DNA of 55,124 nucleotides from NCBI GenBank assembly GCA_021324975.1, contig JAJPIA010000057.1:1-55124 (forward strand), given 5' to 3'. Below the pieces are notes generated by a model. The model was given only the letters and a program-made list of their open reading frames with translations. It did no database searches and was not told the DNA's origin. Shown piece by piece: positions 24,271 to 42,532 of this stretch. The stretch comes from Bacillota bacterium. Its GTDB lineage: Bacteria; Sysuimicrobiota; Sysuimicrobiia; Sysuimicrobiales; Segetimicrobiaceae. The position numbers and the translations under genes are program-made. How positions within the stretch are numbered: the stretch's first letter is position 1; each line of letters starts with the position of its first letter.

Positions 24271-25092
24271 CTAGGCGCCTCGTCCGATGGCGGCGCGGTC
24301 CCGCAGCCCATCGCCCACCAACACCGCGGCCAGGGCAATCGCCACGAGCACACCCGCCGGAAAGGCCGCAAGCCACGGCGCTTGCACGACAACCGCCTGA
24401 GTCTCGCCCAGCATGGTCCCAAGGCTTGCCGCCGGCGGTTGCAGGCCGGCGCCGATAAAGCTGAACGTGGCCTCGCCCAGGATCGCCCCCACGAAAACCA
24501 CGGTTTGCTGCACCAGCACGGAATCCACAGCGTTTCGCAAGATGTGCCGGTAGAGCATGCGCGGCAAGGTGCTCCCAAGCGCTCTCGCGGCCTCAACGTA
24601 CTCCTGGGACGACAACGCTAAAGTGGCGGCCCGCGCCACTCGAATAGTCAGAGGTGTCCACGCTATCAATAGGACGACCACGATGTTGAGGAGCCCGGCG
24701 CCCAACACGGCTACCGAGGCAATGGCGAGGAGGACCGGAGGCAATGACATCAGCGTATCAACGGTGCGCATGATGAACCCATCGAGGTTCCGAATATAGG
24801 CAGCCGCCATGCCAATCGGCATGCCCAAAAGGAACGTCCCCACGCTCACCCCGAGGCCGATTCCCAGAGCGATCTGGGTCGCGTAAATGGTGCGAACCAG
24901 GACGTCCCGACCATACATGTCCGTGCCCATCGCGTGGTCGGGACTGGGGGGCTGCATCAAGCTGTTCGGATCCGCCGCATTGGGATCGAGATGAACGAGA
25001 AAAGGTACAATCAAGACTAACACCGCGATGATACAGAGCGCGCCGCCCCCCACCCACAGGCGCGCATGTCGCGCCCAGGTGCGATTATGCAT
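24271..25092 (-). CDS. ABC transporter permease, DppC type
   Basis: A 273-aa inner-membrane permease. It has HAMGTDMYGRDVLVRTIYA, the contact loop EYVEAARALGSTLPRMLYRH and VLVGDGLRDRAAIGRG at the end. The usual LDPR terminus is replaced and the loop-side Gly-Asp-Gly is kept. Its start overlaps the end of the upstream dppB gene by 8 bp. It is the last gene of the operon binding-protein/DppB/DppC preceded by a serine hydrolase. No ATPase gene follows. Confidence 0.92.
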   Translation of the reverse strand: MHNRTWARHARLWVGGGALCIIAVLVLIVPFLVHLDPNAADPNSLMQPPSPDHAMGTDMYGRDVLVRTIYATQIALGIGLGVSVGTFLLGMPIGMAAAYIRNLDGFIMRTVDTLMSLPPVLLAIASVAVLGAGLLNIVVVLLIAWTPLTIRVARAATLALSSQEYVEAARALGSTLPRMLYRHILRNAVDSVLVQQTVVFVGAILGEATFSFIGAGLQPPAASLGTMLGETQAVVVQAPWLAAFPAGVLVAIALAAVLVGDGLRDRAAIGRGA

Positions 25093-26026
25093 ACGTCACG
25101 CGCGGATCGGCAAGCCCGTAGGCCAGGTCGACCACCAGATTCACCAGAACCACGAGCGTACCGACGAACAGCACGCCACCCTGGAGCGTCGGAAAATCCC
25201 GGTTCAGCGCACTATCGAGGAGCATCCGGCCGAGCCCCGGCAAATTGAACACGACCTCCGCGGCAAATGCCCCACCCAATAACGCAGTAAAGATCAGGCC
25301 GGCGGCCGTGATGACGGGGAGGAGCGCCGAGCGCAATGCATGGCGGAGCAGGACGGCTCGTCGAGGAAGACCTTTGGCCCGCGCCGTCCTCACGTAATCC
25401 GTCGCGAGGGTTTGCAGCATGCCGTTTCTGACAAACCTTGCCAGCGGTCCCCCCTGGATGAGGCCAATCGCGAGCGACGGTAGGCAGATATGCATGAACC
25501 ATGCCCCGGGCGCCCGCACGAGCGGTATGTAGCCTTGCACGGGGAACACCGGCAGGACATCCGCCAGCAGGACCAGCAGGGCCAGGGCTAACAGAAACTC
25601 AGGAAGGACGGACGCACCCGAAGATGCAAGGACCACGAGCATGTCCGTCACACCGCGCCTGACTGCGGCGAAGATGCCCGCGCTGAACCCGATTACCGCC
25701 GCGACAGCAAACCCGACGAGTGTGATGCTCGCCGTCACGCCGAAGTGCGTTGTAATGGCAACAGCGACCGGCGCGTTCAGGAAAATCGACTGCCCCAGGT
25801 TGCCGCGCACCACTTGGCTCAACCATCGCACGTACTGCACCGGAAGCGGCAAATTCAGCCCGTAAATCTGGTTCAGCCGCGCAATGGCTTCCGGCGTCGC
25901 CTGCACACCGAGGATGACGGACGCCGGGCTTCCTCCGGCCAAGTGCACCAGCAGAAAACTCACCACGCTGAGCACGAGCCATACCGCGCCAAGACCCAGA
26001 AGCCGCTTCCCGAGGTATGCAGCCAT
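25085..26026 (-). CDS. ABC transporter permease, DppB type
   Basis: A 313-aa inner-membrane permease. It begins MAAYLGKRLLGLGAVWLVLS and has the contact loop YVRTARAKGLPRRAVLLRHA and the C-terminal GLADPRVTYA. The open frame reaches 26167, but residues before the ATG at 26026 are hydrophilic, overlap the binding-protein gene and are not family-like, so 26026 is preferred. It lies 26 bp after the binding-protein stop. It pairs with the following DppC protein. Confidence 0.92.
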   Translation of the reverse strand: MAAYLGKRLLGLGAVWLVLSVVSFLLVHLAGGSPASVILGVQATPEAIARLNQIYGLNLPLPVQYVRWLSQVVRGNLGQSIFLNAPVAVAITTHFGVTASITLVGFAVAAVIGFSAGIFAAVRRGVTDMLVVLASSGASVLPEFLLALALLVLLADVLPVFPVQGYIPLVRAPGAWFMHICLPSLAIGLIQGGPLARFVRNGMLQTLATDYVRTARAKGLPRRAVLLRHALRSALLPVITAAGLIFTALLGGAFAAEVVFNLPGLGRMLLDSALNRDFPTLQGGVLFVGTLVVLVNLVVDLAYGLADPRVTYA

Positions 26027-26052
26027 GCGGCCTCGATTCCGAAGCGCGTGGC

Positions 26053-27648
26053 CTAGGCCACGTTCCAAAATCGCTGGATGAAATAAACGCGATAGTCCTT
26101 TACGCTGTTGGCCCGCGCGTCGAAGCCCGACAGCAAGCCGATTGGTAGAAACGGCACCTGCTCCCACACGAGATCTTGAATGGCGCGATAGACGCGTCGA
26201 CGTTCGGCAGGATCGAATGCGGCGTCTGCTTCATCGAACAACTTCGCCATCTCCGGGCTCGTGAACCCCGGCGCGAGGGGTGCGTTCGGCGCAATGATAA
26301 TCTTCCAATCGAGCAGGCTCGGCTTGAAGATTGCGCTGCTCGCAAACATGTCCCAGCCGGTTGGCTGGCTGAACAACCGACCGGCGCCGGGCCAGTCCAG
26401 CACTTTGAGTGTCGTCTTGATCCCGGCCAAGTTGAGTTGCCGCGAGACCTCCAGCGCCTCCGAGTACATGTAGGGATAATTGTGGTTAGTGACAATCGTC
26501 AGCGGTTGTCCCCGATATCCCGCCTGTTTGAGCATGGCACGGGCACGTGCCGGATTGGGATGGTTGTAGATACCGGACCCAGCATCAGGATGGTACTTGT
26601 CAGTTTGCTCTGGCCAGAACAAACTGCCGCTGGGCTTGTAGAACCGCTGATCGCCGGCCGCTGCCACGCGGAGGACGGAGGTGAAATCGAGGGATGCGAC
26701 CATGGCCTGCCGCAAAGGGAGACTGGCCAACGGCTGCCCCGGCCGCTGGTTGAGCCAGAAACCGAGCAGCGCGTTTTGCGTCATCACGAGCGGTTGAACA
26801 GTCTTGCCGGCAAGTACCTTTGTGAAGCTGATCGGGAGATCTTGCGCGTAACTGTAGTCGCCGCGCAACAGACCCGTGAGCCGAGTCTGCTCCTCTTTGA
26901 CGAACATGAAGCGCACGGCTGAGTGGTACGCGATTCGGGTACCGCCCAGTCCCGTTGCCGGCAGACGCGACGGAGACTTGTATCCTGTCCAGCGGGCCAG
27001 CAGGAGATATTGATCCGGGCGCCACTCCTGGACCCTGTACGGCCCGGTACCCACGATTTCGGTTACAGTGAGTGGCCGCGTCATGTGGGCGTACTGGGCT
27101 GGCATGACCGCCACCTGCGGCAGCGGTGTCGCAAGCGCATCGAGCAAGAGCGCGTACGGCTTATCCGTTTGCACAACCACTGTATACGCACCGGTTGCCT
27201 TGACCGAGACGATCGGCTTCAGCGCCGCCACCGCCTGCCCCATCGAGCGTGCGCGGTCGAGGGAAGCGACCACGTCGTCGGCTGTGACCGGTGCCCCATT
27301 GTGAAATCGGAGCTCAGGCGCCAGCGTGAACGTGTATGTGGTCCGATCCGCGCTCACGTGCCAGCGAGTGGCTACGTTCGGAATAATCCTGTATTGCTCG
27401 TCATAGGTTACGAGCGAATCGTAGACATGCAGAAGGAGCTCCATCGCGATCTGCGATCCGTTCAACGTGACATCCACTGTGGGTGCGGGAGTTGACGGCG
27501 CCACGCGCAGTTCACCGAGGGAGCCCGCCTGCATCGATTGGGCGAACACCGCGGTGCCGGGCTCCAGAATACGTGGAAGCGCCGCTCCGCCGACGGTGAG
27601 CCCGCCAACACCGAGTGACCGCCAGATAAACTCTCGCCGCTTCATCAT
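26053..27648 (-). CDS. Family-5 ABC transporter solute-binding protein, Tat-like signal
   Basis: A 531-aa extracytoplasmic binding protein. The signal peptide MMKRREFIWRSLGVGGLTVG is Tat-like (KRREF), cleaved near VFAQS, with no lipobox. The mature protein has the family-5 pattern (ATRWHVSADRTTYTFTLAPE, FHNGAPVTADDV, VGTGPYRVQEW). It differs strongly from the other binding proteins in the window. Order in the operon is serine hydrolase, binding protein, DppB, DppC. The ligand is probably a peptide or peptide-like compound, given the upstream penicillin-recognising hydrolase; this is inference. Confidence 0.9.
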   Translation of the reverse strand: MMKRREFIWRSLGVGGLTVGGAALPRILEPGTAVFAQSMQAGSLGELRVAPSTPAPTVDVTLNGSQIAMELLLHVYDSLVTYDEQYRIIPNVATRWHVSADRTTYTFTLAPELRFHNGAPVTADDVVASLDRARSMGQAVAALKPIVSVKATGAYTVVVQTDKPYALLLDALATPLPQVAVMPAQYAHMTRPLTVTEIVGTGPYRVQEWRPDQYLLLARWTGYKSPSRLPATGLGGTRIAYHSAVRFMFVKEEQTRLTGLLRGDYSYAQDLPISFTKVLAGKTVQPLVMTQNALLGFWLNQRPGQPLASLPLRQAMVASLDFTSVLRVAAAGDQRFYKPSGSLFWPEQTDKYHPDAGSGIYNHPNPARARAMLKQAGYRGQPLTIVTNHNYPYMYSEALEVSRQLNLAGIKTTLKVLDWPGAGRLFSQPTGWDMFASSAIFKPSLLDWKIIIAPNAPLAPGFTSPEMAKLFDEADAAFDPAERRRVYRAIQDLVWEQVPFLPIGLLSGFDARANSVKDYRVYFIQRFWNVA

Positions 27649-27675: not shown

Positions 27676-28497
27676 CTACCGCGGCACTACATCCTCAGCG
27701 CACCACGCGTCGTATGTTAGTCTCGCCAACTTGCCGATATAGACCTCCCCTTCATTCTCGAAGGAGAACCCGGCGTCCCGAGAATCAGCCGTCATGATCG
27801 CGAGAGCGATCGATTTCGTTCGATTCTCGATGAGCGCGATATCGGTGCGGACACCGGGCAGGCTGCCTGTTTTGTTTGCGATCTGCAATGGAGATCGTCC
27901 GTACGCTCCGTAGGGCAGGTAGCGCGGAATCATGTTTCGATAGAACTGCTTGCGCGCTATGTCCAGCGTTCCGGCAGAGCCAGGGAAGCGCCCAGCCGCG
28001 AGTCCCTTGATGTAGTCGAGAAGGGCACGCGGGGTCGCCCGACCCATGGACCGAGTCGGACGATCTGGCTGAAAATATGCGTACGAATCGACTATGATGC
28101 CGGGCCCGATCACGGACCGAATACACTCGTTCGTCCACTCGATGCTCATGGTGCGAAGCAGCACGTTCGTCGCGAGATTATCCGATAAGCAAATCATCAG
28201 CCATGCTGCGTCTCGGAAGGAGATCGGGCGGGGTAGAGACAGGTACTGTAGCACGCCGGAACCGCCCGGGACATCATGCGGGGACAACCCTACCGTATCA
28301 TCCCAAGATGCCCGCCCCTGCGCGACATATGTGTGGAATGCCGTGAGCACAGGCAGCTTGACCGCGCTCGCCGTTGGGAACATGTCATCGGCGTCGGCCA
28401 AGATTAACTGGTCCGACGTCAGATCGGCCAGAGCGTACCCAATACGCCCAGAAAATCCGCCGGCGGTTTCCGCGAGACGCAACGCGAGGTCGCTCAC
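27676..28497 (-). CDS. Serine hydrolase of the penicillin-recognising (class A beta-lactamase-like) fold
   Basis: A 273-aa protein with all three active-site boxes: S44-A-V-K47 (TASAVKLP), S105-D-N107 (LSDNLATN) and K209-T-G211 (NKTGSLPGVRTD). The deacylating Glu of class A lactamases (omega loop) is not evident, so it is more likely a peptidase or amidohydrolase than a resistance enzyme. No signal peptide is seen, so it may act in the cytoplasm. The GTG start lacks a good ribosome binding site. It leads the transporter operon, with the binding-protein start 27 bp downstream, so it may open an imported peptide or lactam-like compound. Confidence 0.85.
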   Translation of the reverse strand: MSDLALRLAETAGGFSGRIGYALADLTSDQLILADADDMFPTASAVKLPVLTAFHTYVAQGRASWDDTVGLSPHDVPGGSGVLQYLSLPRPISFRDAAWLMICLSDNLATNVLLRTMSIEWTNECIRSVIGPGIIVDSYAYFQPDRPTRSMGRATPRALLDYIKGLAAGRFPGSAGTLDIARKQFYRNMIPRYLPYGAYGRSPLQIANKTGSLPGVRTDIALIENRTKSIALAIMTADSRDAGFSFENEGEVYIGKLARLTYDAWCAEDVVPR

Positions 28498-29135
28498 GAT
28501 GGTTCACCGTGGACCCAGGTACGCTTCCAGTCCTCGATTCGAGTATTCGCGGACGCCGGAGAAATTCATGCCGGCAGCATCAGTCATGCCGCTACACCAA
28601 GTGGGCGGCCCTGCGCATAGCTGGCGGATCGGGTTCGCGGTGTCGCACCGAGTGTTCCCCAAGGATCGTGCACGGCCCGAGGACGCCCGTACAATACCGC
28701 TCCCACTCGTCGCGCAGCGCCACGTTGCCCCGATGGGTACTGGGTAATTTGCCACGCATCGTATCATGGAGCCGCACGGTGCTTGGGCACGTGGTGCCTT
28801 ATTCGCATCATGTTAGCCACACTATCAGAACCTCCACCAAACAAGTTTCCAGATGGCGCGAGCCCCCCAGTTGCTGCCGACACAGGGGGTGGCGCACCTT
28901 CCGTCCTGTTCCCGATCCGACCCCGCCTCCTTTGGCGGAGACAACCTTCTCAGGCGCCTCTGCTCATCCTGTCGATCTGAGGGTGGGCTCTGATCGGCGA
29001 TCCGGGTCGATTTTTGAGGCCAAAGCGACTCGCCATGGGGCAGGATTCTGGCCAGTCTTGCGTAACAATATTTTGGATCACCCAGTCTACCGCCCACTCG
29101 CGGATGTCGATCCGACATCAGGAGGAATGCGAGAC
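28498..29135. other. Divergent intergenic region without a recognised gene
   Basis: 638 bp separate the minus-strand serine hydrolase operon from the plus-strand ten-gene operon. Overlapping minus-strand frames at 28592-28777 and 28504-28767 resemble a short frameshifted coding relic, but I cannot name a family. The right half should hold the promoter of the plus-strand operon; I found no convincing -35/-10 pair. AGGAGG at 29120-29125 is the ribosome binding site of the next gene. Confidence 0.4.
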
Positions 29136-30701
29136 ATGCCTCGGATAACTCGCCGGCAATTCGCGCAACGCGCGTTGGGCACAACGAGCCTGTTGTTGTT
29201 CGGCGTTGCACAACGCGCTGCTCCGCAAGGCGCTTCGCGGCTTACCGTTGCGATGGGCGACGAGCCCAACACGTTCGACATCCCGTTCTATTCGACCAGC
29301 CCGCTGTCCCACTCAGCAGTAGGGCTGGTCGAAGAGGGCCTCGCCTATATCGATGAGCGAGGAGCACTCAAGCCGCTGCTGGCCGAGAGCTGGGGCGTTT
29401 CCGGCGACGGCCTGGTGTGGACGTTTCGGCTCCGGCGAGGCGTCCGGTTCCACGATGGAACGCCGTTCAATGCCGAGGCCGCGAAGTTCACATTTGACCG
29501 CATGCTCGCGGAGACTGATCCGATCACCGGCAAGAAGGCGCTTAACGCCTTTATTTTCAGCGGTGTCACCGGAATTCGGGCGGTCGACACGTACACGTTG
29601 CAGATTGCCACGAAAGCGAAATATGCGCCGATGGTGCGCAACATCGCCTATGGAGGCGGGGTTGGAATCGCGAGTCCCACTGCCGTGAAGAAGCTGGGCA
29701 CGAGCTACGGGCTGCATCCCGTCGGGACGGGCCCGTACCGTCTCACGGAGTGGGCGAAGGGCGAACGCATCGTGCTGGGGCGGAACGGCGAATACTGGGG
29801 TGGCGGCGGTGGGGTAGACACGATCACGTTTCGTATTATCCCCGACGCCTCGGCCAGGACGTTGGGCCTCATGAGCGGCGATTATGATGTAATCGGTGAC
29901 GTACCTCCGGAGCAGGTCGCGCAATTGCGCCGGGCACGGGCCCTGGGTGTCATCGCTCAACCCATCAATCGGATGATCTGGCTCATCCCCAACGTTCGGA
30001 ACAGCTCACCGCTCAGCAAGCCGCCGGTGAGACGAGCCGTGAACCTTGCGATCAATCGCGAGACCTTGGTCAAGGATGCATTGTACGGGTTTGCGAGACC
30101 AGCGGACACCGTTTTGTCGCCCCTGACGCCCGGCTACGCGGCGGTCGGTCGATATCCGTACAATCCTGCCGACGCTAAGAAGTTGCTGGCGCAGGCGGGG
30201 TATCCGAACGGGTTCACGGTCAAGTTGGTCTACGCCCCGTATGTGCCACAGAGTCAGTTGGTCAGCGAGACCGTGCAGGGGTACTTGCAACAAATCGGCG
30301 TGCGGGTCGAGCTGACGCACCTGGAGCAGGCGACATACTGGGCTGCCATGCGGGACGCTTCCGATAAGTATGACCTTTGGCTGTTTGCCTGGGGTCCCGG
30401 CAACGCCGACGCTGATACGTTGCTCACGTCGACGTTCAGTTCAACGTCCATCCCCGTCTATAACGTCGGCGCTTCTTCGAATCCGGTGCTGGACCGTCTC
30501 ATCGCTCAGCAGCGCAGCACACTCGATCCCCGGGCGCGAGCTCGGATTATCGGCCAGGTTCTCGAGCAGATCTACAACCAAGATCTGGCGATTCCGCTCT
30601 TCAACCAGGAAGCCCTGATCGGCCTCAAGCTGAGTATCAAAGGCATGTGGGTTTCCCCTAACGGCACACTCGGGCTCGAACGAGTGACGGTCGGGTCATA
30701 A
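29136..30701 (+). CDS. Family-5 ABC transporter solute-binding protein, Tat-exported
   Basis: A 521-aa extracytoplasmic binding protein. Signal MPRITRRQFAQRALGTTSL carries a twin-Arg motif without a lipobox. The mature domain shows the dipeptide/oligopeptide pattern (LAESWGVSGDGLVWTFRLR, VRFHDGTPFNAEAAKFTFDR, HPVGTGPYRLTEW). ATG codons at 29127 and 29136 are both in frame; 29136 is chosen because AGGAGG lies ten bases before it. It is first in the ten-gene operon and is the receptor for the DppB/DppC pair found six genes later. The ligand may be the substrate of the two amidohydrolases that follow. Confidence 0.92.
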   Translation: MPRITRRQFAQRALGTTSLLLFGVAQRAAPQGASRLTVAMGDEPNTFDIPFYSTSPLSHSAVGLVEEGLAYIDERGALKPLLAESWGVSGDGLVWTFRLRRGVRFHDGTPFNAEAAKFTFDRMLAETDPITGKKALNAFIFSGVTGIRAVDTYTLQIATKAKYAPMVRNIAYGGGVGIASPTAVKKLGTSYGLHPVGTGPYRLTEWAKGERIVLGRNGEYWGGGGGVDTITFRIIPDASARTLGLMSGDYDVIGDVPPEQVAQLRRARALGVIAQPINRMIWLIPNVRNSSPLSKPPVRRAVNLAINRETLVKDALYGFARPADTVLSPLTPGYAAVGRYPYNPADAKKLLAQAGYPNGFTVKLVYAPYVPQSQLVSETVQGYLQQIGVRVELTHLEQATYWAAMRDASDKYDLWLFAWGPGNADADTLLTSTFSSTSIPVYNVGASSNPVLDRLIAQQRSTLDPRARARIIGQVLEQIYNQDLAIPLFNQEALIGLKLSIKGMWVSPNGTLGLERVTVGS

Positions 30702-30702
30702 C

Positions 30703-31725
30703 GTGAGCCTGGTCATCGATGCCGATACCCATATCGAGGTGAGTCTCGAAGAGCTCGCCCAATTCATGGCGCAGCCGATGAGGCGCGAGGTCGAAGCGGC
30801 GACGCCTGGGTCGCTGCTTCCGGGAACTCTCGGTGCCCCGCCATCGGCCGCCACACTGCAGCAGAAGGGGTCGGACGGGCCGGGCTCGTCGGACGGCAGC
30901 TCTGAGCCGGACTACTGGCTCGCATTTCCAGGGCTCGTGCTCACGATGACGTTTCATCCCAGTGTCCGGCTGGAGACCGGGGTCGCCACCGCCTATGCGC
31001 GCTGGCTCGCAAACGCCTATCTGCCCACGCATCCCCGGGCGAGGGCGATGCTCTATCTGCCCATCAGGGATACGGACGCGTCGTGTCGATTGGTGGACGA
31101 GTTTGGAGACGTAGCGGGGATTGTGGGCGCGTTTGCCACCAACCTCCCGGCGCTTCAACCGTTTGAAAACCACGATATGCGGTCGTATCGAGCGCTGGAG
31201 GAACGAAGGTTGCCGCTCGGGTTTCATCCCGTCTTCATGTGGACCGAGCCACCGCTCACCGTGTTCGATACGTATACGGCAGCGTACGCTTACGCGTATC
31301 CCTTCACGCAGGCGACGCACCTAATGAACTGGATTCTCAGCGGCATGCCCGAACGCATTCCGGATCTCGCCTGTATCTACTACGGAGCCGGCATCACGTG
31401 GCTCAACTTTGTCGCCCACCGGCTGGATCAAGGATACATGAGGCGGCCGTCGGAAGCGCCACTCCTGAAGGAACGTCCAAGTCACTATATGCGGCGCTAC
31501 TTCTATGGGACGCATCCGGTCGACGCGAACGACGATGCGGGGTACCTCAAGGCCACGTTCGATCTCATCGGCGTCGGCCAATTTATCTACGCGTCAAACT
31601 CTCCGCAATGGGATTTCGACACCCCCGAGGCGATCCGGCGGCTGGAGTTCTTGGACGAAGCGGAGCAGGCGGCCATCCTCGGTTCGAACGCGGCGGGCCT
31701 CTTCCGCCTGCCCGCTGCATCATAG
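30703..31725 (+). CDS. Amidohydrolase-2 (ACMSD-like) protein with altered active site
   Basis: A 340-aa TIM-barrel protein of the amidohydrolase-2 family (decarboxylases and hydrolases such as ACMSD). IDADTHIE at the N-terminus and H175 (GFHP) are kept. The C-terminal metal site reads YASNSPQWDFD (N299, Q302), where the sister protein at 32137 has YASDYPHWDFD. The essential Asp is therefore Asn and the nearby His is Gln, so this copy is probably catalytically weak or dead. GTG start directly after the binding-protein stop. It is collinear with the sister protein and separated from it only by a Rieske gene, so a complex of an active and an inactive subunit is plausible. Confidence 0.87.
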   Translation: MSLVIDADTHIEVSLEELAQFMAQPMRREVEAATPGSLLPGTLGAPPSAATLQQKGSDGPGSSDGSSEPDYWLAFPGLVLTMTFHPSVRLETGVATAYARWLANAYLPTHPRARAMLYLPIRDTDASCRLVDEFGDVAGIVGAFATNLPALQPFENHDMRSYRALEERRLPLGFHPVFMWTEPPLTVFDTYTAAYAYAYPFTQATHLMNWILSGMPERIPDLACIYYGAGITWLNFVAHRLDQGYMRRPSEAPLLKERPSHYMRRYFYGTHPVDANDDAGYLKATFDLIGVGQFIYASNSPQWDFDTPEAIRRLEFLDEAEQAAILGSNAAGLFRLPAAS

Positions 31726-31733
31726 GATCGGCG

Positions 31734-32147
31734 ATGGACTGGCGTGCTGTCTGTCGATGTGACGATGTCACGGCGGAGGCCGTCACGGTCGTTGAGGTCG
31801 ACGGGGTTGAGGTCGGTCTTGTTCGCGTCGGCGGCACCATCACCGCGTTTGAGAATATCTGTCCGCATCAGGCCGGTCCGGTTTGCGATGGGGAGGTAAT
31901 GGGCCCGGTCGAAGTGCTCCTCGACAGCGACAGGCGGATGCTCGACGAGCGCTTCGCGGCACATCGCCGCATCCTGATCTGCCCGTGGCACGGTTACTCA
32001 TTTGACGTTGCCACGGGTGAGTGCATTACTGATCGGAAGATCCACTTGCGTCGATGGAAAGTCCGGGAGGACGACGGCGTGGTATACGTGACGGTCCCTG
32101 GCACGCGTGCGGCACACCGCGGTCAGGAGGGATCCAATGCCACGTGA
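31734..32147 (+). CDS. Rieske [2Fe-2S] protein with an insertion in the cluster domain
   Basis: A 137-aa ferredoxin-like electron carrier. Cluster ligands are C43/H45 (CPHQAG) and C83/H86 (CPWHGYSFD). The two boxes are 37 residues apart, about 20 more than in ordinary Rieske ferredoxins; the insert (MGPVEVLLDSDRRMLDE) is charged. No oxygenase large subunit lies nearby, so it is not an obvious ring-hydroxylase partner. It sits 8 bp after one amidohydrolase-2 gene and overlaps the next by 11 bp, so the three products are probably made together and may form one complex. The ATG at 31734 begins a compact Rieske domain. Confidence 0.9.
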   Translation: MDWRAVCRCDDVTAEAVTVVEVDGVEVGLVRVGGTITAFENICPHQAGPVCDGEVMGPVEVLLDSDRRMLDERFAAHRRILICPWHGYSFDVATGECITDRKIHLRRWKVREDDGVVYVTVPGTRAAHRGQEGSNAT

Positions 32148-33336
32148 CCTGCTTCGAAACGCCCCGCGCCTCGTGCGAGAACGCGGGCTCGACCGGACGC
32201 TCATCATCGATGCCGACGTCCATCACATCAGCGTGATCAAGTTCCTCGGCCAGTTCATGGATGCGCCGTGGCGGCGTCTGTTTGAGACGTTGCCGGTCGA
32301 GTCGCTCGCCCCGACCGATCCGGCAGACCGCCGCGTGGCGGGCCGGATCAAACGGCCGCCGATCCCGTCCCCCGATCCGACTGACCCGGCGCGGGCGGCA
32401 CACGCCCTTGTCGCCGATCTTGCACGGATTGGCGTAGACTACTCCGTGATCTTCGCCGACGATCTGCTGACGCTGTCGCTCCATCCGGATCGGCGTTTTC
32501 AAACCGCGGTGGCTCGCGCCTACGCCCGCTGGCTCACGGAGTGCATCCTGCCCCAGGAACCGCGCATCAAGGCCATGCTGTATTTGCCGATGGTCGATCC
32601 TGATGCGAGCCTTGCGCTGATCCACGAGTTTGGAGACGCGGCCGGCGTGGTCGGGTTTCAAGTAAACCTTGTTGGCCTCGATCAATTTTACGTTGACGGT
32701 TGCGCCAGAGTCTACGCAGCCGCGGAGGAACGGGGACGGGCCGTTGGGTTCCATTCGACCGGGCACTGGCCGCGCTTCCCGATGTTCGAGACGTTCCTCG
32801 GTGCGCACGCGATCAGCTTCCCCGCGTTCAATGCGATGTGCCTGATCAATTGGGTGTGGAGCGGGATGTGTGAGCGATTCCCGCGGCTCCGCTGTATTTT
32901 CTTTGAGGCAGGAGCGGCATGGATCGCTATGTTGATGGCGCGGCTCGACCGCGTCTACCGAATGCGTCCAGAGGACGCGCCGTGCCTGAGGCGGCTGCCG
33001 AGCGAATACATGGCCGAGTGTTTCTACACGGTGCAGCCGCTTGAGCAGCCGGAGAGCGCCGAGCAGCTGCGACTACTGTTTGCCCGCATCGGATCGGGGC
33101 AAGTCCTCTACGCCTCGGACTATCCGCACTGGGACTTTGACATGCCGTACTCGTTGAGCCGCCTGTCATTCCTTTCGCGCGCCGAGCGCGAAGACGTGCT
33201 TGCGCTGAACGCCATACGCGCGTTCGGGCTCCGGCGCGAAGAACTTTCACTCGTGGAGTGGAAACGTGAGGCGGCAGCGCGGGCACCGCGCGGCGCCTGT
33301 GTTGACGAAAACCTCATCACGGAAGGACCGGCATGA
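32137..33336 (+). CDS. Amidohydrolase-2 (ACMSD-like) enzyme, intact active site
   Basis: A 399-aa TIM-barrel metal enzyme. IDADVHHI (residues 24-31) supplies the N-terminal ligands, H206 (VGFHSTGH) the barrel His, and YASDYPHWDFD the C-terminal Asp (D328) and His (H331). The family performs metal-dependent decarboxylation or hydrolysis of small acids. Segments such as AYARWLTECILPQEPRIKAM and HEFGDAAGVVGFQVN match the copy at 30703, showing a duplication around the Rieske gene. AGGAGG precedes the ATG at 32137. The next gene overlaps the stop by 4 bp (ATGA), indicating translational coupling. Substrate unknown. Confidence 0.9.
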   Translation: MPRDLLRNAPRLVRERGLDRTLIIDADVHHISVIKFLGQFMDAPWRRLFETLPVESLAPTDPADRRVAGRIKRPPIPSPDPTDPARAAHALVADLARIGVDYSVIFADDLLTLSLHPDRRFQTAVARAYARWLTECILPQEPRIKAMLYLPMVDPDASLALIHEFGDAAGVVGFQVNLVGLDQFYVDGCARVYAAAEERGRAVGFHSTGHWPRFPMFETFLGAHAISFPAFNAMCLINWVWSGMCERFPRLRCIFFEAGAAWIAMLMARLDRVYRMRPEDAPCLRRLPSEYMAECFYTVQPLEQPESAEQLRLLFARIGSGQVLYASDYPHWDFDMPYSLSRLSFLSRAEREDVLALNAIRAFGLRREELSLVEWKREAAARAPRGACVDENLITEGPA

Positions 33337-33590
33337 CAACCCATCACGCTAGTACCGTACTGGCAGTGGCCGTGAAGGAATACGCACGGACGGTCGGCGA
33401 GGCGATCGAGCGGGGGACCCAGCCACCAGCGGCGTTGCCTGCGGAGAGCGCTGTGACGCCCACAGAGGTGATGATCGCGGTTGACGGGCTCCTTCGTGCG
33501 GCCGACCTGGAGGTCTTCGAAGTCCAGATCTGGCGCGCGCTTGGCCGCGGCATCCCAAGCGCCGCTGATCTCGGCAGGCGTGAACCATGA
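33333..33590 (+). CDS. Small conserved-looking protein of unknown function
   Basis: An 85-aa protein I do not recognise. It starts in an ATGA overlap with the amidohydrolase stop (GGAAGGACC upstream) and itself overlaps the GntR start, so it is translationally coupled on both sides. This strongly supports real coding. It is predicted soluble and mostly helical; VAVKEYARTVGEAIERG and TEVMIAVDGLLRAADLEVFE are amphipathic segments separated by a Pro/Ala linker. It has no signal peptide or Cys/His cluster. A small accessory or assembly subunit for the amidohydrolase/Rieske proteins is one possibility. Confidence 0.75.
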   Translation: MTTHHASTVLAVAVKEYARTVGEAIERGTQPPAALPAESAVTPTEVMIAVDGLLRAADLEVFEVQIWRALGRGIPSAADLGRREP

Positions 33591-34306
33591 CCATGAGCCT
33601 GAACCGCGGCGCGACGGGCCGGCCGGTGGCCACCGAGGGAGACGTCAGTTTCCAAAAAGTCCGGGGGGTGCGCCTGTACGAGAGCGTGGTCAATCAGATC
33701 TTCGACCTGCTCGCCGCAGGTCGTCTCGGGCCCGGGCATCAATTGCCCCCAGAACGTCTCCTGGCGCAGCAGCTCGGCGTGAGCCGCAACGTCCTGCGCG
33801 AAGCGTTTCGAGCGCTCGAAATGCAGGGGATCGTGGTGAGTGTTCCGGGCGGGCGGCGATTTATCCGGCCAGATAACATCCAGGAGATCATCGACATCCG
33901 AGGGTTGATCCTGCGCCTGGAGCACGCGACGGTTCGCGACATTCTTGAATCGCGTGCGCTCGTCGAGACGGAAGCGGCCTCCCTCGCGGCCGACCGCATC
34001 GTAGAAGCGGACGTAGCGCTGCTGCGGGATGCGGCGCGCCGGCGCGACACGTGGCAGGATAACCGGAATTTCCACGTGGTCCTGGCGTCTGCGACGCACA
34101 ATATCCTGCTGCCGAAACTTGTGGGGATTCACCTGGATCTGCTTCAGGATCTCAACCAGCGGGGCCGCTACCGCGACGAACAGGCTCAGGAACTATTGCG
34201 TGAACATGTCGGCATCGCCGAGGCGGTCATCGCCAAGGCGCGTGACCGATCCCGCGAACTAATGCAACAGCACTTCCGGCACACGCGCGAGTTCTTGGGG
34301 GTGTGA
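33587..34306 (+). CDS. GntR-family (FadR/FCD) transcriptional regulator
   Basis: A 239-aa regulator. The winged helix covers about 25-95 (LPPERLLAQQLGVSRNVLREAFRALEMQGIVVSVPGG, an unmistakable GntR signature). The FCD ligand domain covers about 110-235 (DILESRALVETEAASLAADR, FHVVLASATHNILLPKLV, LREHVGIAEAVIAKARD) and includes the Asp/His positions that often bind a metal and an organic acid. It sits in the middle of the ten-gene operon and overlaps the preceding small gene by 4 bp. It most likely senses the operon's substrate or a carboxylate intermediate. No clear operator was found upstream of 29136. Confidence 0.92.
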   Translation: MTMSLNRGATGRPVATEGDVSFQKVRGVRLYESVVNQIFDLLAAGRLGPGHQLPPERLLAQQLGVSRNVLREAFRALEMQGIVVSVPGGRRFIRPDNIQEIIDIRGLILRLEHATVRDILESRALVETEAASLAADRIVEADVALLRDAARRRDTWQDNRNFHVVLASATHNILLPKLVGIHLDLLQDLNQRGRYRDEQAQELLREHVGIAEAVIAKARDRSRELMQQHFRHTREFLGV

Positions 34307-35440
34307 GTGAATGCCGCGTGCCTCGCGGTTCGCATGAGAATCACGGCGCTCGAAGCCATTCCGCTCCGTGCCGCGTTCTCGCGCTCATTCAGTTTCGGGA
34401 CGGTGGACCGCACGGTGTCGCATAACGTCGTGCTGAAGCTGACCAGCGACGACGGCATCCACGGTTTCGGCGAAGCCTGCCCCGTTGGCGCCTTTAGCGG
34501 CGAGACGCAAGAATCGGTTGTGCAGTTGCTCGAAGGTCCCGTGCGCGAGATGATCCTCAACGCGGACCCGTTTCAACATGCCGCGTTGGTGAAGCAGCTG
34601 GAACCGCGCCTCCACGGGTGTCCGTTTACGCTGGCAGCCGTCGATATGGCGTTGTACGATCTCGCGGGCAAGGCGCTCGGCGTGACGGCGGCGACCCTTC
34701 TGGGTGGGGTCTTCCGGGAGCGCGTAGTGATGCACGGTTCTGTCGGCTGGGGAGTGGCGGAAGAGATGGCCGAAGCGGCGCTGCAACAGCTAGCGTACGG
34801 CTATCGCTCCGTCAAACTCTATGCTGGGCGGGGTGATTTGGCCGCAGATCTGCGTCGCATTGAGACAGTCCGCAGTGCGGTGGGCGACGACGTCGGTTTG
34901 ATCGTGGACGTGAACGGGTTGTGGGACTTCGCGACGTGCCGACGGGCGCTGGGCCCGCTGCGAGACCTGCGCGTTTCGCTCCTTGAACAACCGCTCCCAC
35001 CATGGGACTGCGATGGACTACGCTGGGTCACCGAGACGGGTCAAGTGGACATCGCCGGCGACGAGGCCATTTATACAACGTTTGACGTGGCACAGGCTGG
35101 CCGCTTGCGGACCATGGATGCCGTGAACCTCGGCATCTCCAAGCTCGGCGGTCTCCTCCGGGCCCGGGATTGCGCGGCCGTGGCGTTCTCAGCCGGCCTC
35201 AGGGTCGTGATGGGCAGTGTCTTGGAGTTGGATATCGCCACGGCCGCCGGCCTCCAGTTCGCCGCAACACTCCCCACACTGCCATATGCGAGCTACTTGA
35301 TTGGTCCGATGAAGTACGAGCGCCGTCTCGGCGTGACGGCATTCGAGGTCCACGACGGGGCCGTCGACGTGCCGCGCGGTCCGGGCCTGGGGGTGGAGGT
35401 CGATCCCGACGCGCTCGCGGCGCTCGACCTCAGGCGATAG
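34307..35440 (+). CDS. Enolase-superfamily (mandelate racemase/muconate lactonising) enzyme
   Basis: A 377-aa protein with an alpha/beta capping domain (about 10-135) and a TIM barrel. Metal ligands appear as D201-x-N203 (IVDVNGLWD), E227 (LLEQPL) and D252/E253 (GDEAIY), and the base Lys as K279 (ISKLGG). On the other face the usual KxK motif reads K170-L-Y172, so one of the two Lys is Tyr, which should change the chemistry. The family abstracts a proton next to a carboxylate for racemisation, cycloisomerisation or dehydration. The GTG immediately after the GntR stop is given as start; the family match begins at the Met encoded at 34334, a possible true start. Confidence 0.88.
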   Translation: MNAACLAVRMRITALEAIPLRAAFSRSFSFGTVDRTVSHNVVLKLTSDDGIHGFGEACPVGAFSGETQESVVQLLEGPVREMILNADPFQHAALVKQLEPRLHGCPFTLAAVDMALYDLAGKALGVTAATLLGGVFRERVVMHGSVGWGVAEEMAEAALQQLAYGYRSVKLYAGRGDLAADLRRIETVRSAVGDDVGLIVDVNGLWDFATCRRALGPLRDLRVSLLEQPLPPWDCDGLRWVTETGQVDIAGDEAIYTTFDVAQAGRLRTMDAVNLGISKLGGLLRARDCAAVAFSAGLRVVMGSVLELDIATAAGLQFAATLPTLPYASYLIGPMKYERRLGVTAFEVHDGAVDVPRGPGLGVEVDPDALAALDLRR

Positions 35441-35483: not shown

Positions 35484-36404
35484 GTGACACGGTTTTGGCT
35501 CGCCCGCATCGTGCGCACCGCGGCCGTTTTATTCGGCGTATCAGTTGTCGTGTTTGCGATCATGCGGGCCATCCCCGGGGATCCGGCGGTCATCCTCCTC
35601 GGGGGGCAGGGGACGGCGCAGGATCTCCAGCGCGTGCGGCAGAGCCTGGGGCTCGACCAACCTGTCTACGTGCAATTCTTGAAGTGGTTTTCCCAGATCG
35701 TATTAGGCAACCTCGGGACGTCGATCTTCACGGGGCAGCCCGTGCTCACCGAGATTGTACCGCGGCTTTGGGCCAGCCTCGAACTTGCAGGGTTTGGAAC
35801 CGGGATCGGCGTCACGATAGGGCTTGCGTTGGGCGTATTCGCCGGTGCCCGGAGTCAAACGTTCTTCGACCACGCGGCGACGCTGGTGGCGGTGTTTACG
35901 ATTTCGATGCCGGCATTCTGGCTCGGCATCATTCTGATCTACGTGTTCTCCGTACTGCTGGGTTGGTTCCCTACCGGCGGGCAAGGCGGGCTCGCGAGCT
36001 TGGTGCTGCCGGGGCTGTCGATCGCCACGTGGACACTGGGGTTAGTCACCAGAATGACGCGGTCCGGCGTGCTCGACGTGTTAGGGCACGAGTACGTGCG
36101 AACGGCGAGAGCCAAAGGCAGCAGCGAGTCGCGCGTGATGTACCGGCACGTGTTGCGGAACGCCCTGCTGCCGGTCATTACGGTCCTCGGCGTTCAGTTT
36201 GGTGTCGTCCTGAGTTCCGCTGTCGGGGTCGAGGTGGTCTTTGCGTGGCCCGGCATCGCTCGGCAAATCACTCAGGCGATCCTCGAGCGCGACTACCCGA
36301 TGATTCAGGCGGCGGTTCTTATCATCGCCTCCGTCTTTGTATGCAGCAACCTGCTGGTCGATCTCTTGGTCGGCTACCTCGACCCCCGGATTCGGTACGG
36401 GTGA
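35484..36404 (+). CDS. ABC transporter permease, DppB type
   Basis: A 306-aa inner-membrane permease. The first helix is RTAAVLFGVSVVVFAIMRAI, followed by PGDPAVILLGGQGT, the contact loop YVRTARAKGSSESRVMYRHV and the end LDPRIRYG. GTG start, 43 bp after the enolase-superfamily gene. It belongs to the ten-gene operon whose first gene encodes the binding protein. It pairs with the DppC protein 36 bp downstream. Confidence 0.93.
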   Translation: MTRFWLARIVRTAAVLFGVSVVVFAIMRAIPGDPAVILLGGQGTAQDLQRVRQSLGLDQPVYVQFLKWFSQIVLGNLGTSIFTGQPVLTEIVPRLWASLELAGFGTGIGVTIGLALGVFAGARSQTFFDHAATLVAVFTISMPAFWLGIILIYVFSVLLGWFPTGGQGGLASLVLPGLSIATWTLGLVTRMTRSGVLDVLGHEYVRTARAKGSSESRVMYRHVLRNALLPVITVLGVQFGVVLSSAVGVEVVFAWPGIARQITQAILERDYPMIQAAVLIIASVFVCSNLLVDLLVGYLDPRIRYG

Positions 36405-36440: not shown

Positions 36441-37307
36441 ATGAGGCTCCGGCAGTTCAAGCGCAATGGGGTGGCATTGTTGGGGAGCGTGATTGTCGGC
36501 GTCTTTCTCATCGGCGGGATTGCGGCGCCATCCATCACGCGGTATGACCCGACGCGGATGAACCTTCCGGACAAGCTCATGCCACCGACCGACCGCCATC
36601 TCCTGGGCACTGACGAATTAGGCCGCGACTTGCTGACGCGAATCCTGTACGGCGCGCGCATCGCTTTTGTGACCAGTGGTCTCGTCATCGCGATCGGTCT
36701 CACCAGCGGCGCCGCCATGGGCGTGCTCGCCGCCTGGTACCGGGCGGCTGATCCGATCGTCAGCGGCCTCGTCGAGATCTTGATGTCCATCCCGGCGATC
36801 TTGCTGGCGCTCGCCATCGTGACCGTGCTCGGTCCGGGCGCGATGAAAGCCGCCGTCGCGATCGGGATTGCCGCGTGTCCCAATTTTGCGCGGCTGATTC
36901 GCAGCACGCTCATGGCCGTCAAGCGGCGCGAATACGTCGAAGCCGCCCGGGCTGTGGGCGCCAGGGACAGCCGAATCATCATCAAGTACCTTATCCCGAA
37001 TAGCGTGTCCCCGATCATTGTCCTCGCCACGTATCAAATGTCGACTGCACTGCTGACCCTGGCTACCTTGAGTTTCATCGGACTCGGCACCCAGCCGCCT
37101 GCTCCAGATTGGGGCACGATGCTTGCGCGCGGCCGTGAATTTCTGCAGCTGGCGCCATACTACTCGATCGTCGCGGGTATGCCCATCGTTCTTCTGGTGT
37201 TGGGGTTCAATCTGGTCGGTGACGCATTGCGGGACGTGTTCGATCCGAGGTTCACCGGTCACGACGCGGCATTCGGCGCGCGTGGCGGTGCGACGCGAAC
37301 GGGGTGA
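36441..37307 (+). CDS. ABC transporter permease, DppC type
   Basis: A 288-aa inner-membrane permease. It has HLLGTDELGRDLLTRILYGA, the contact loop EYVEAARAVGARDSRIIIKY, the segment LATLSFIGLGTQPPAPDWG and VGDALRDVFDPR at the end. It overlaps nothing and lies 10 bp before the oxidoreductase gene. It completes the transporter of the ten-gene operon except for the ATPases, which are absent. Confidence 0.93.
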   Translation: MRLRQFKRNGVALLGSVIVGVFLIGGIAAPSITRYDPTRMNLPDKLMPPTDRHLLGTDELGRDLLTRILYGARIAFVTSGLVIAIGLTSGAAMGVLAAWYRAADPIVSGLVEILMSIPAILLALAIVTVLGPGAMKAAVAIGIAACPNFARLIRSTLMAVKRREYVEAARAVGARDSRIIIKYLIPNSVSPIIVLATYQMSTALLTLATLSFIGLGTQPPAPDWGTMLARGREFLQLAPYYSIVAGMPIVLLVLGFNLVGDALRDVFDPRFTGHDAAFGARGGATRTG

Positions 37308-37317
37308 ACGAAAGCCA

Positions 37318-38955
37318 ATGAGACAGTACGACGCGATCGTTATCGGCGGCGGCCACAACGGGCTCACGGCCGCGGGCTACTTGGCGCGGGAGGGCCTTCG
37401 AGTCCTCGTGCTTGAGCGGCGCGCAGTGGTTGGAGGGCCGTGCTCGCTGCTGGAATACTTTCCCGGCTACCGGGGAGCGTTTTCAAATTCCCCGGGATCA
37501 TTCGAGCCCAAGATCATGCGCGACCTGCGCTTGCAGGAATTTGGCCTCACCTTCGTGCGGCCCGATCCGTACGTTATCCATCCTTTTCCCGACGGACGGT
37601 GTTTCGCCGCGTGGCGGGACCGGGACCGAATGCTGGAACATCTCGCGGGGTTCTCGGCGCACGACGCCGGCGCGTACCAGGATCTGCTCGATGATCTGCA
37701 AGCCTTTGCGACCCGGTTGCGGGTGTCGTTATTCGCCCCACCTCCGTCTCTTCGAGAGCTTGTGAGCCGATTGGATACGCCGCAAGACGAGGAGATGCTC
37801 GCGAAGCTCGTGTTCGGAAGTGTCAAAGAATTGGTGGACGAGCGGCTCGAATCGGATGAAGTCAAAGCGGTCCTCGCCATGCTCAGTCTCATGAGCAGTC
37901 TGGCGGGTCCCCACACTCCCGGCACGCCGCTCATGCTCCTGCACCGGCCGCTTGCGCTCGCGTCGCGGGGCCTCGAGCAGGGTTACGATCCGGCGGTTCT
38001 CCCGCTGAGAGGATCGACCGGGCTTCCGTGCGGCGGGATGGGATCGATCACGCAGGCGATGAGCCGATCCATTCAGGCGTTGGGTGGCGAGATCAGGACC
38101 AAGGCGCCGGTCGCAAAAGTCCGGGTGGCGGGGAATCGTGCGGTCGGCGTCGTCCTAGCAACCGGGGAGGAGTTGGGCGCCACGGTCATACTGTCGAACC
38201 TGAACCCGAAGACGACCTTCCTGGACATTATCGAGCCGCACTGTCTGAGCGGTGACTTCCGCGACCGGGTTCGGCGGTTACCCATGCAGGGCAATCAGTT
38301 CAAACTCGGCCTGGCGCTCGATGGGCTTCCGCGATTCGCCGCAGCGCGAACCGACGAGGAAGTGCTCGGGTTCGCGGGGTGCCAATTCCGGATCGGACCC
38401 TCCATGGACTATATGGAGAGCGCGTGGGACGATGCGAAGCGCGGCCGCTGGGCCCGAACCCCGATGATGTGGGGCCTGACGCCCTCCGTCATGGATCCGT
38501 CGCTGGCGCCTCCCGGGAAACATCTCATGAGCATTAACATCTACCACGCACCGTACCGGCTCAGCGACGGCGATTGGCGAGAAGAGCGTGACCGCTTCGG
38601 CCGCCACTGCATCGACGTTCTTAGCAGTTACATTCCCAACCTGAAGGATCTGATCGCCCAATACCGGGTCTGGAGCCCAAAGGACCTCGAGGATGAGCTC
38701 GGTCTCGTGGAAGCCAATATCACCCACGGCGACATGGTCCCCTCGAACATGTTCGCGATGCGACCGCTGGCCGGCTGGTCTGACTACCGAACGCCACTCC
38801 AAGGATTGTATCTCTGCGGAGTCGGAACGTGGCCGGGCGGATACGTGTCGGGAATACCGGGGCACAATGCGGCGCAGCAGGTGCTTCGCGACCTGCGTGA
38901 AGGCCTCGACCAAGTCCATCGACGGGTGATCGGAGAGAGGCGCCCCGGACTCTAG
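37318..38955 (+). CDS. FAD-dependent oxidoreductase, phytoene desaturase/PYROXD2-like
   Basis: A 545-aa flavoprotein. The N-terminal Rossmann motif VIGGGHNGLTAAGYLAREG (8-26) and the following ERRAVVGGP are typical of the phytoene desaturase-like amine oxidase superfamily. The C-terminal FAD segment is LYLCGVGTWPGGYVSGIPG. Length fits PYROXD2-like proteins, whose substrates are poorly known. The start at 37318 is chosen because the flavin-binding strand begins at residue 4 and the open frame upstream overlaps the permease. It is the last gene of the ten-gene operon. It might exchange electrons with the Rieske protein; this is conjecture. Confidence 0.88.
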   Translation: MRQYDAIVIGGGHNGLTAAGYLAREGLRVLVLERRAVVGGPCSLLEYFPGYRGAFSNSPGSFEPKIMRDLRLQEFGLTFVRPDPYVIHPFPDGRCFAAWRDRDRMLEHLAGFSAHDAGAYQDLLDDLQAFATRLRVSLFAPPPSLRELVSRLDTPQDEEMLAKLVFGSVKELVDERLESDEVKAVLAMLSLMSSLAGPHTPGTPLMLLHRPLALASRGLEQGYDPAVLPLRGSTGLPCGGMGSITQAMSRSIQALGGEIRTKAPVAKVRVAGNRAVGVVLATGEELGATVILSNLNPKTTFLDIIEPHCLSGDFRDRVRRLPMQGNQFKLGLALDGLPRFAAARTDEEVLGFAGCQFRIGPSMDYMESAWDDAKRGRWARTPMMWGLTPSVMDPSLAPPGKHLMSINIYHAPYRLSDGDWREERDRFGRHCIDVLSSYIPNLKDLIAQYRVWSPKDLEDELGLVEANITHGDMVPSNMFAMRPLAGWSDYRTPLQGLYLCGVGTWPGGYVSGIPGHNAAQQVLRDLREGLDQVHRRVIGERRPGL

Positions 38956-41258: not shown

Positions 41259-41518
41259 CGAGGTGCCTCGCCAGGGAGGGTACTACCCCCTGAAAAAACC
41301 ATGGTGACATCAGTTTTCGGGGTCTTCAGGATCGTACCTTTGCCGCCGGTGTGGATGACTCGTACGAGATGGGCGCGGATAGGAGATGTGAAACCATAGA
41401 ACGTAACCTGAGTGGTGTTCGGGGCGCAGGGATCGTCGAAACGCTCAATCCCAGTCCTCCACTGCCGTCGATACGGCGGGGGTGACACCGCGCTCAGTCG
41501 CAATTGAGGAGTCTTGCC
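41259..41518. other. Divergent intergenic region
   Basis: 260 bp between the minus-strand aminotransferase and the plus-strand amidohydrolase. A short minus-strand frame (about 41416-41266, containing IHTGGKGTILKTPKTDVTMV) looks protein-like but has no start or ribosome binding site. GAGGAG at about 41506-41511 serves the next gene. No clear operator was seen. Confidence 0.35.
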
Positions 41519-42532
41519 ATGAATCGGCCGGAATGGATATCGAAGTCGCCGATGGGATCGATCGACTTCCACGCCCACTACGTCCCTCCGGAAGCGCTTC
41601 CGTCGAACACGTTCGAGCGTAACGGGGACATGGTTGTGTTTGCGCTGGGCGGGCAGGGTAGCGAGCGCATCGGCCCCGTCCCGGCGACGGTCATGGATCT
41701 CGGGGCGCACGCGGACGCATTGGTCCGTGACCGCATCGATTGCCGTGTGCTGTCGCTCCCGCCGTTTGCGCTCGCCGACAACATCTCCGGCGATGAGGCT
41801 GTAGCGTATGCACGGGCGGCGAATAAGGCCTTTGGCGCCGTGAGCCGGGAGAGCGGAGGCAAGTTTCTCGGTCTGGCGACGGTGCCACTGTCGGAAGCTC
41901 CCCACGTTGTTGACGTCATGCGTGAGGCCGTGGAAACGCATGGGCTGCGCGGCGTCGAGATTTGCAGCTACAACGGCACGCGAGAGTTGGACGACCCGGC
42001 GCTCGAACCGTTCTGGACCGGCGCCGAGATGCTGGCGCTCCCGGTCCTTATCCATCCCAACAAGGTGGCCGGGGCAGCGCGGATGGGATCCTACTACCTC
42101 CAGAATCTGGTCGGGAATCCACTCGAGACCGCGCTCGCGGCCGCGCGTCTCACGTTTGGCAACGTACTCGCTCGCCATCCCGCGCTGACCGTGGTGTTGA
42201 GCCATGGTGGCGGTGCGTTTCCCTTCATCGCCGGCCGGCTCCAGCGAGGCGCGGAGGCACGCCCTGAATGCCAAGGATCGCTTGCGCCCTGGGAAGCGCT
42301 TCGACGCATCTACGTGGACACCGTGGTCTTTCACCCAACGATCTTGCGTGCGCTCCTGCTACTCGTGCCCGCAAGCCACGTCGTGTTGGGATCCGACGCT
42401 CCATTTTCGATGAGCGAGCAGGACGCATTGGCGACGATCCGTGCCGCCGTTGCACCAGGCCCGGACAGGGACGCGATCCTGTTCCAAAATGGCATGGACC
42501 TGCTCCGAGGTTCCAGCAAGCCGCAGGGCTAG
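41519..42532 (+). CDS. Amidohydrolase-2 (ACMSD-like) enzyme
   Basis: A 337-aa TIM-barrel metal enzyme. H18-x-H20 (IDFHAHYVPPE), the barrel His in VLIHPNK, the His in VLSHGGGAFPF and the Asp in LGSDAPF form the complete metal site of the 2-amino-3-carboxymuconate-semialdehyde decarboxylase family. It is not closely related to the pair at 30703 and 32137. It is closer to classic ACMSD-like decarboxylases. The ATG at 41519 follows GAGGAG; an in-frame Met at 41504 has none. It is transcribed alone, diverging from the aminotransferase and converging on the racemase-like gene. Confidence 0.88.
   Translation: MNRPEWISKSPMGSIDFHAHYVPPEALPSNTFERNGDMVVFALGGQGSERIGPVPATVMDLGAHADALVRDRIDCRVLSLPPFALADNISGDEAVAYARAANKAFGAVSRESGGKFLGLATVPLSEAPHVVDVMREAVETHGLRGVEICSYNGTRELDDPALEPFWTGAEMLALPVLIHPNKVAGAARMGSYYLQNLVGNPLETALAAARLTFGNVLARHPALTVVLSHGGGAFPFIAGRLQRGAEARPECQGSLAPWEALRRIYVDTVVFHPTILRALLLLVPASHVVLGSDAPFSMSEQDALATIRAAVAPGPDRDAILFQNGMDLLRGSSKPQG

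Follow-up and report, generated by a model that had tools for sequence, protein, structure and literature searches.

A degenerate paralogue encoded beside an intact amidohydrolase-related oxygenase in a Sysuimicrobiota genome: a candidate non-catalytic subunit

The window analysed here is a single stretch of 55,124 nucleotides from a bacterium of the Segetimicrobiaceae (Sysuimicrobiota; assembly GCA_021324975.1, contig JAJPIA010000057.1, positions 1 to 55,124 of the forward strand), and our subject is a pair of paralogous genes that lie on either side of a Rieske gene. Copy A (30703..31725, plus strand) encodes a degenerate protein of 340 residues that resembles the amidohydrolase-related dinuclear oxygenases (AROs) and matches PF04909 with 48 bits. 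Between the two copies sits a gene for a Rieske [2Fe-2S] ferredoxin of 137 residues with a CPH ... CPWH motif (31734..32147, plus strand; PF00355, E 1.4e-13), whose 3' end overlaps the start of copy B. Copy B (32137..33336, plus strand) encodes an intact ARO of 399 residues counted from the ATG at 32137, or 409 from an upstream GTG at 32107, and scores 86.9 bits against PF04909, for which the cut-off is 26.4. Next comes the gene of a small, predicted helical protein of 85 residues (33333..33590, plus strand), with ATGA overlaps to both of its neighbours. The run opens with a solute-binding protein gene of the peptide/opine-type ATP-binding cassette (ABC) uptake systems (29127..30701, plus strand; an open reading frame with a start, named by sequence resemblance), whose stop lies one base ahead of the start of copy A. 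The genes from 29127 onward are packed like an operon, and the operon is predicted from this packing.

Copies A and B share 140 of 348 aligned columns (40% identity, E 1e-80), far above chance, and the pair of sister proteins proposed by an earlier, sequence-only reading of this DNA is present where that reading placed it. Its two diagnostic motifs also hold: YASNSPQWD in copy A, with N299 and Q302, stands opposite YASDYPHWD in copy B, where D328 and H331 counted from the ATG correspond to D338 and H341 in the GTG numbering used below. PMC7782822 lists Asp25, His27, His211, Glu265, Asp337 and His340 as the ligands of AibH2 and places Asp342 in the second shell. Copy B keeps equivalents of all of them (D37, H39, H216, E267, D338, H341 and second-shell D343). 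Copy A keeps D8, H10, H175 and second-shell D304, and has lost three of the six first-shell ligands, so that the full six-ligand ARO set is absent. The earlier reading had described the changes to N299 and Q302 and thereby understated the loss: the Glu of FFEAG in copy B (E267) is the Gly of IYYGAG in copy A (G228). Three further positions conserved in at least 98% of AROs and kept in copy B, H195, Q271 and E274, are also changed in copy A, which in addition has neither the N-terminal extension nor some 16-20 residues ahead of the strand DYW. By eye, no frameshifted remnant of the missing stretch is visible in the other two frames. A frameshift artefact was rejected as the origin of the gap; on the same inspection the other frames hold no sequence resembling the helix, and copy A reads through.

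Both copies fall in PF04909 and are named Amidohydro_2 by Pfam and by automatic annotation, and the sequence-only reading called them amidohydrolases. That label is not borne out, since ligand set, closest structures and Rieske partner all point to a dinuclear oxygenase, and plain amidohydrolases were rejected on the same three grounds. In PMC10811679 a neighbouring gene for a small Rieske protein is described as the signature by which AROs are recognised; because such a gene, which the sequence-only reading had passed over, lies between the two copies, we reinterpret the pair as oxygenases rather than hydrolases. A Rieske ferredoxin is the customary source of electrons for AROs. A Rieske gene is also found at 78 of 89 relative ARO loci (defined below). 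The nearest solved structures are 8sm7, AibH2 (6m1w chain B), 8sm8, 8sm9, SfbO (8sm6), AibH1 and PtmU3, and decarboxylases score much lower than oxygenases in structure-database matches of both copies. A literature search for "TruffO", a word in the PDB titles of 8sm7-9, gave no relevant match. PF04909 includes members with one metal (PMC10811679), and the metal-site residues of one such decarboxylase, ACMSD, are reported as His9, His11, His177 and Asp294 (PMC11650718). The mononuclear pattern of hydrolases and decarboxylases (H-x-H, H, Asp) is found in neither copy: both have D-x-H, and copy A has Asn in place of the Asp. With its PF04909 domain, its full AibH2 ligand set and a Rieske gene in the same predicted unit, copy B is classed from sequence as an ARO.

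The closest parallel to the arrangement is AibH1H2, the 2-aminoisobutyrate hydroxylase of Rhodococcus wratislaviensis (6m1w, 8fun), in which adjacent PF04909 paralogues likewise occur with a Rieske gene and nearby uptake genes, and in which one copy has a full dinuclear ligand set and the other is presumed non-catalytic. The enzyme is described as heterotetrameric, one of its members being non-catalytic (PMC7782822, PMC12141560). AibH1 is reported to be needed for activity in cells and to bind a mononuclear metal at a site 0 with ligands D, H, H, E and D (PMC7782822); site-0 metal mutants of AibH1 were insoluble, and its role was left open with a call for further experiments (PMC10401708). Copy A does not have this site 0 set, its E being G and its D being N. 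The AibH1-type partners, as seen in five plasmid loci, keep D, H, H, E, D and H and lose just the second-shell Asp (H in two, Q in three), whereas copy A keeps that Asp and loses E, D and H. Single-copy AROs (SfbO 8sm6; 8sm7, 8sm8 and 8sm9; the 89 loci) share ligands, fold and Rieske neighbour with copy B, which is closest to an ARO clade that also carries the small protein; unlike the window, they have one ARO gene per locus rather than two of which one is degenerate. ACMSD and related PF04909 decarboxylases have the same fold as copies A and B but bind a single metal, have H-x-H ligands, lack a Rieske gene and are homodimers. A literature search on pseudoenzyme amidohydrolases returned nothing relevant.

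For comparison, 89 other ARO loci were collected, nine from genome searches and the remainder the best 80 of at least 560 confirmed matches in a scan of named genomes, and each was examined up to 8 kb on either side of the ARO, or less where contigs end. The Glu, Asp and His lost in copy A are kept in 89 of 89. The first two ligand letters were unread or odd in eight loci when read by pairwise alignment (L022, L044, L052, L058, L067, L069, L073 and L097), whereas every locus gave readings for the last five. Two marine/alphaproteobacterial AROs among these (L044:1293-2564 and L069:5749-6969) show Ser where the ligand His of D-x-H is expected, possibly by a slip of the alignment. Within the stretches examined, none of the 89 loci has a second ARO copy beside the first. 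The check proposed by the sequence-only reading, that one copy of the pair should always carry N and Q in homologous loci, therefore fails. Searches with copy A detected no orthologue in sets of 61, 43, 386 and 386 genomes, which overlap, nor, with copy A or the small protein, in 1264 genome look-ups, in which many genomes are repeated. A scan of genome contigs with copy A alone found no relative, a search of the phylum of genome G073 covered a single genome and yielded nothing, 386 further genomes around G073 gave just two single-copy ARO loci, both already known, and a plasmid search with copy A returned, among the matches listed (15 of 34), single places at about 33% identity. Besides the pair, the genome of the window encodes a further, single-copy ARO that belongs to a different subclade and also lies beside a Rieske gene (locus L026, contig G000:C52, 4550-6112).

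So far copy A has been met in a single genome, and the signs of its maintenance are those in the gene itself. It is open over its full length, with no stop and no frameshift. In a neutral simulation that started from copy A and allowed substitutions only, 5% of runs were still free of stops when 22% of residues had changed and 1% when 34% had. The branch leading to copy A is about 2 changes per column long (1.98 in a tree of 39 rows, 1.43 in one of 32 rows); set against the simulation, a branch of this length with an open frame implies that the gene was under selection along most of it. Across the other 89 AROs, 35 columns (16 polar and 19 non-polar) reach at least 98% conservation; copy A has lost ten of them, seven polar and three non-polar, and copy B four, all non-polar. 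The polar losses differ between the copies by Fisher test (p 0.007, with the groups chosen after the data had been seen), and by this residue pattern the losses of copy A appear to strike catalytic-looking residues rather than the scaffold. The sequence-only reading had held that the N/Q change would be a local mutation if homologues of copy A kept the Asp and His. Local it is, in that it is known from one genome, but copy A deviates at seven of the 16 most conserved polar columns and not at N/Q alone, and for that reason its divergence appears to be more than a single stray mutation. At the 90% conservation level (96 columns) copy A keeps 67 and copy B 72, the median of the other AROs being 99% and two distant AROs keeping just 51% and 61%; at this looser level the two copies are alike, and both have drifted from the family. 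The G+C content at third codon positions (GC3) of copy A is 0.75, like that of neighbouring genes, and its composition shows no sign of decay. Its predicted structure, a single-chain model, retains the fold, a TIM barrel with a mean predicted local distance difference test score (pLDDT) of 85.3 and a predicted template modelling score (pTM) of 0.86, and matches 8sm7_A with Z 37.2 over 324 residues, SfbO with 36.3, AibH2 with 35.1 and PtmU3 with 31.0. The model is weak evidence that copy A folds, because predictions that draw on aligned intact relatives are apt to reproduce the fold of those relatives.

The history of the pair was examined in the two trees just mentioned, the first with 34 of the 91 collected AROs, including copies A and B, plus five PDB chains (39 rows), and the second with 21 of the 91 plus 11 plasmid proteins (32 rows). 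Copies A and B are joined in both, with support of 98/94 and 94/96, respectively. In the 32-row tree fully supported branches split AibH1/AibH2-type proteins from copies A and B and the single-copy loci, and a clade of copy A with five AibH1-type proteins is rejected by the approximately unbiased (AU) test (p 3e-7). Copy A as an AibH1 orthologue is ruled out by this test and by the reversed ligand pattern. It can safely be taken from these trees that the pair does not derive from the AibH1/AibH2 duplication, and it likely arose by a duplication within the lineage of this operon.

We hold it to be probable, though well short of certain, that the hydroxylase component of a Rieske-fed ARO is built from copies A and B as its two subunits, copy A being a non-catalytic partner of copy B. 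The suggestion of the sequence-only reading that copy A is a structural or regulatory subunit, as in a heterodimer with the intact copy, thus remains the best reading, AibH1H2 being its sole structurally known close parallel, although the enzyme class has changed from hydrolase to oxygenase. Several observations weigh against such a partnership. Single-copy relatives of the same clade work without a partner copy; copy A comes from one metagenome-assembled genome in 144 contigs; its model is disordered beside the missing stretch (residues 46-65 are affected), and both this and the absence of the N-terminal segment and of a helix-sized stretch present in all relatives could mark decay. A tree that places copy A outside copy B and the single-copy AROs survives the AU test (p 0.38), and with both copies on long branches the sister position is not firm.

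These points agree in large part with an unlikely alternative, in which copy A is a decaying duplicate and copy B alone, as a homo-oligomer like its single-copy relatives, is the enzyme; the lost ligands, moreover, could each have gone by one- or two-base changes. The open frame tells against it, as the simulation leaves room for a recent release from selection only, and so do the polar bias among the ten lost columns, the retention of 16 of 19 non-polar scaffold columns, and the place of a gene of normal GC3 at the head of the ARO genes, directly upstream of the Rieske gene and copy B. Decay would also leave unexplained why copy B itself has a long branch (1.5 in the 39-row tree, compared with 1.98 for copy A and a median end branch of 0.36), which is what would be expected if the two copies had changed together. 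Copy A might instead be an enzyme with an altered site, in which D-x-H and H175 hold one metal in a 2-His-1-carboxylate arrangement and support another reaction, such as that of a lyase, a hydratase or a hydrolase acting on the product. The retention of D8, H10, H175 and D304 would fit, as would the existence of the one-metal members noted above, but we regard this as improbable: the metal-binding Asp of mononuclear members (Asp294 of ACMSD; PMC11650718) is N299 in copy A, the catalytic or ligand Glu is Gly at 228, and the positions of H195, Q271 and E274 are changed as well. Least credible, and very improbable indeed, is a reading of the two copies as ordinary hydrolases or decarboxylases that have nothing to do with the Rieske gene; the database names speak for it, and the oxygenases among the best matches, the ARO-type ligand set of D-x-H, E and D/H and the recurrence of the Rieske gene at relative loci speak against it. 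Among arrangements already described, the pair is most likely a variant of the AibH1H2-like one that evolved separately.

If copies A and B are partners, the assembly would probably be A2B2 or AB. Copy B, in which the dinuclear site is complete, would hold an Fe/Fe or Mn/Fe centre for activation of O2 and C-H hydroxylation, and the Rieske ferredoxin encoded between the copies would feed it electrons. Copy A, as a structural or regulatory partner, would complete the quaternary structure and might also contribute residues to the active site of copy B across the interface. In ACMSD, Arg239 of the adjacent subunit is reported to enter the active site and complete it (PMC11650718); aligned via an ACMSD-like protein also encoded in the window (41504-42532), the Arg239 column falls on R279 in copy B and R240 in copy A, and it is our guess from this alignment that R240 might reach into the active site of copy B.

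The small protein downstream of copy B belongs to a family of about 85-130 residues that an iterated hidden Markov model finds at 51 of 90 ARO loci (the 89 and the window), beside the ARO and Rieske genes (e.g., L028:7577-7885 and L100:4046-4345), and that has a C-terminal motif T-[AP]-T-[ED] ... F-[ED]-[LV]-x-[ML]-W. A profile search of 386 genomes gave seven matches in six genomes, all seven at ARO loci already collected. The family alignment comprises 40 of the 51 members, the loci from genome searches and some near-copies being left out. None of the 40 matches Pfam at E 0.01, one has a weak NCBIfam match to a hypothetical protein (E 0.0024), and the best hit of a PDB profile search with the family has E 0.09. 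A relative of 99 residues is modelled as four helices (pLDDT 91.0, pTM 0.75), for which a fold search gave no PDB match below E 4.5. The small protein was not found at 39 of the 90 loci, some of which are cut by contig ends and 11 of which also have no Rieske match, nor in six AibH2-type plasmid loci, where matches are weak (E 2.3 or worse). At a set of alphaproteobacterial loci (L030, L033-L036, L038, L039, L043, L046, L048, L050 and others) the Rieske gene stands directly before the ARO gene with no small protein; such loci indicate that the protein can disappear or has a substitute in them. PMC10811679, as far as read, makes no mention of it, and the words "small protein" are absent from PMC10401708, no dedicated literature search having been made. 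In the case of diiron monooxygenases, effector or coupling proteins such as MmoB and T4moD are small extra proteins encoded with the hydroxylase and the ferredoxin. The small protein may be an undescribed family tied to one ARO clade and, possibly, a fourth component of these monooxygenases. By analogy one might guess at an effector like MmoB; unlike MmoB and T4moD, it is predicted to consist of four helices and has no PDB match, a sequence link having been examined by PDB search only.

Downstream, the run continues on the plus strand with a regulator of the GntR/FadR type, with GntR and FCD domains (33587..34306), and an enolase-superfamily enzyme of the mandelate racemase/muconate cycloisomerase type (34307..35440), both assigned by domain search, and with open reading frames named by sequence resemblance as a DppB-like (35484..36404) and a DppC-like (36441..37307) ABC permease. 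The predicted operon would import a small organic compound via the solute-binding protein and the DppBC transporter and start its breakdown by hydroxylation. The run ends with a CrtO/phytoene-desaturase-like protein of the flavin adenine dinucleotide (FAD) type (37123-38955, plus strand), which scores far under its family cut-off; its open reading frame opens inside the preceding permease gene, and its real start must lie further downstream. Upstream of the run, a protein of serine beta-lactamase fold is encoded on the minus strand (27676-28497; Beta-lactamase2, 1.4e-37), next to a peptide-type ABC gene set of opposite orientation (24271-27648, identified by eye). It scores 55.5 bits against the NCBIfam cut-off of 200 for class A beta-lactamases, and instead of conferring resistance it may act as a peptidase or amidase.

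A bolder picture, which we offer as a tentative possibility, is that the locus encodes a second, independently evolved asymmetric ARO, in which a partner without any metal site acts by shape and interface alone and the four-helix protein, a member of this ARO clade's loci, is added as an effector or coupling protein, the fourth component. AibH1H2 without its native partners is reported to have a Michaelis constant (KM) above 100 mM (PMC10401708), and SfbO one of 83 mM for a surrogate substrate (PMC10811679). If the picture is true, the small protein would be a new candidate component for Mn/Fe or Fe/Fe monooxygenases that work poorly in vitro, the split into catalytic and non-catalytic AROs would have arisen more than once, and a natural partner without ligands would separate the need for a partner from the need for the partner's metal, with no mutagenesis.

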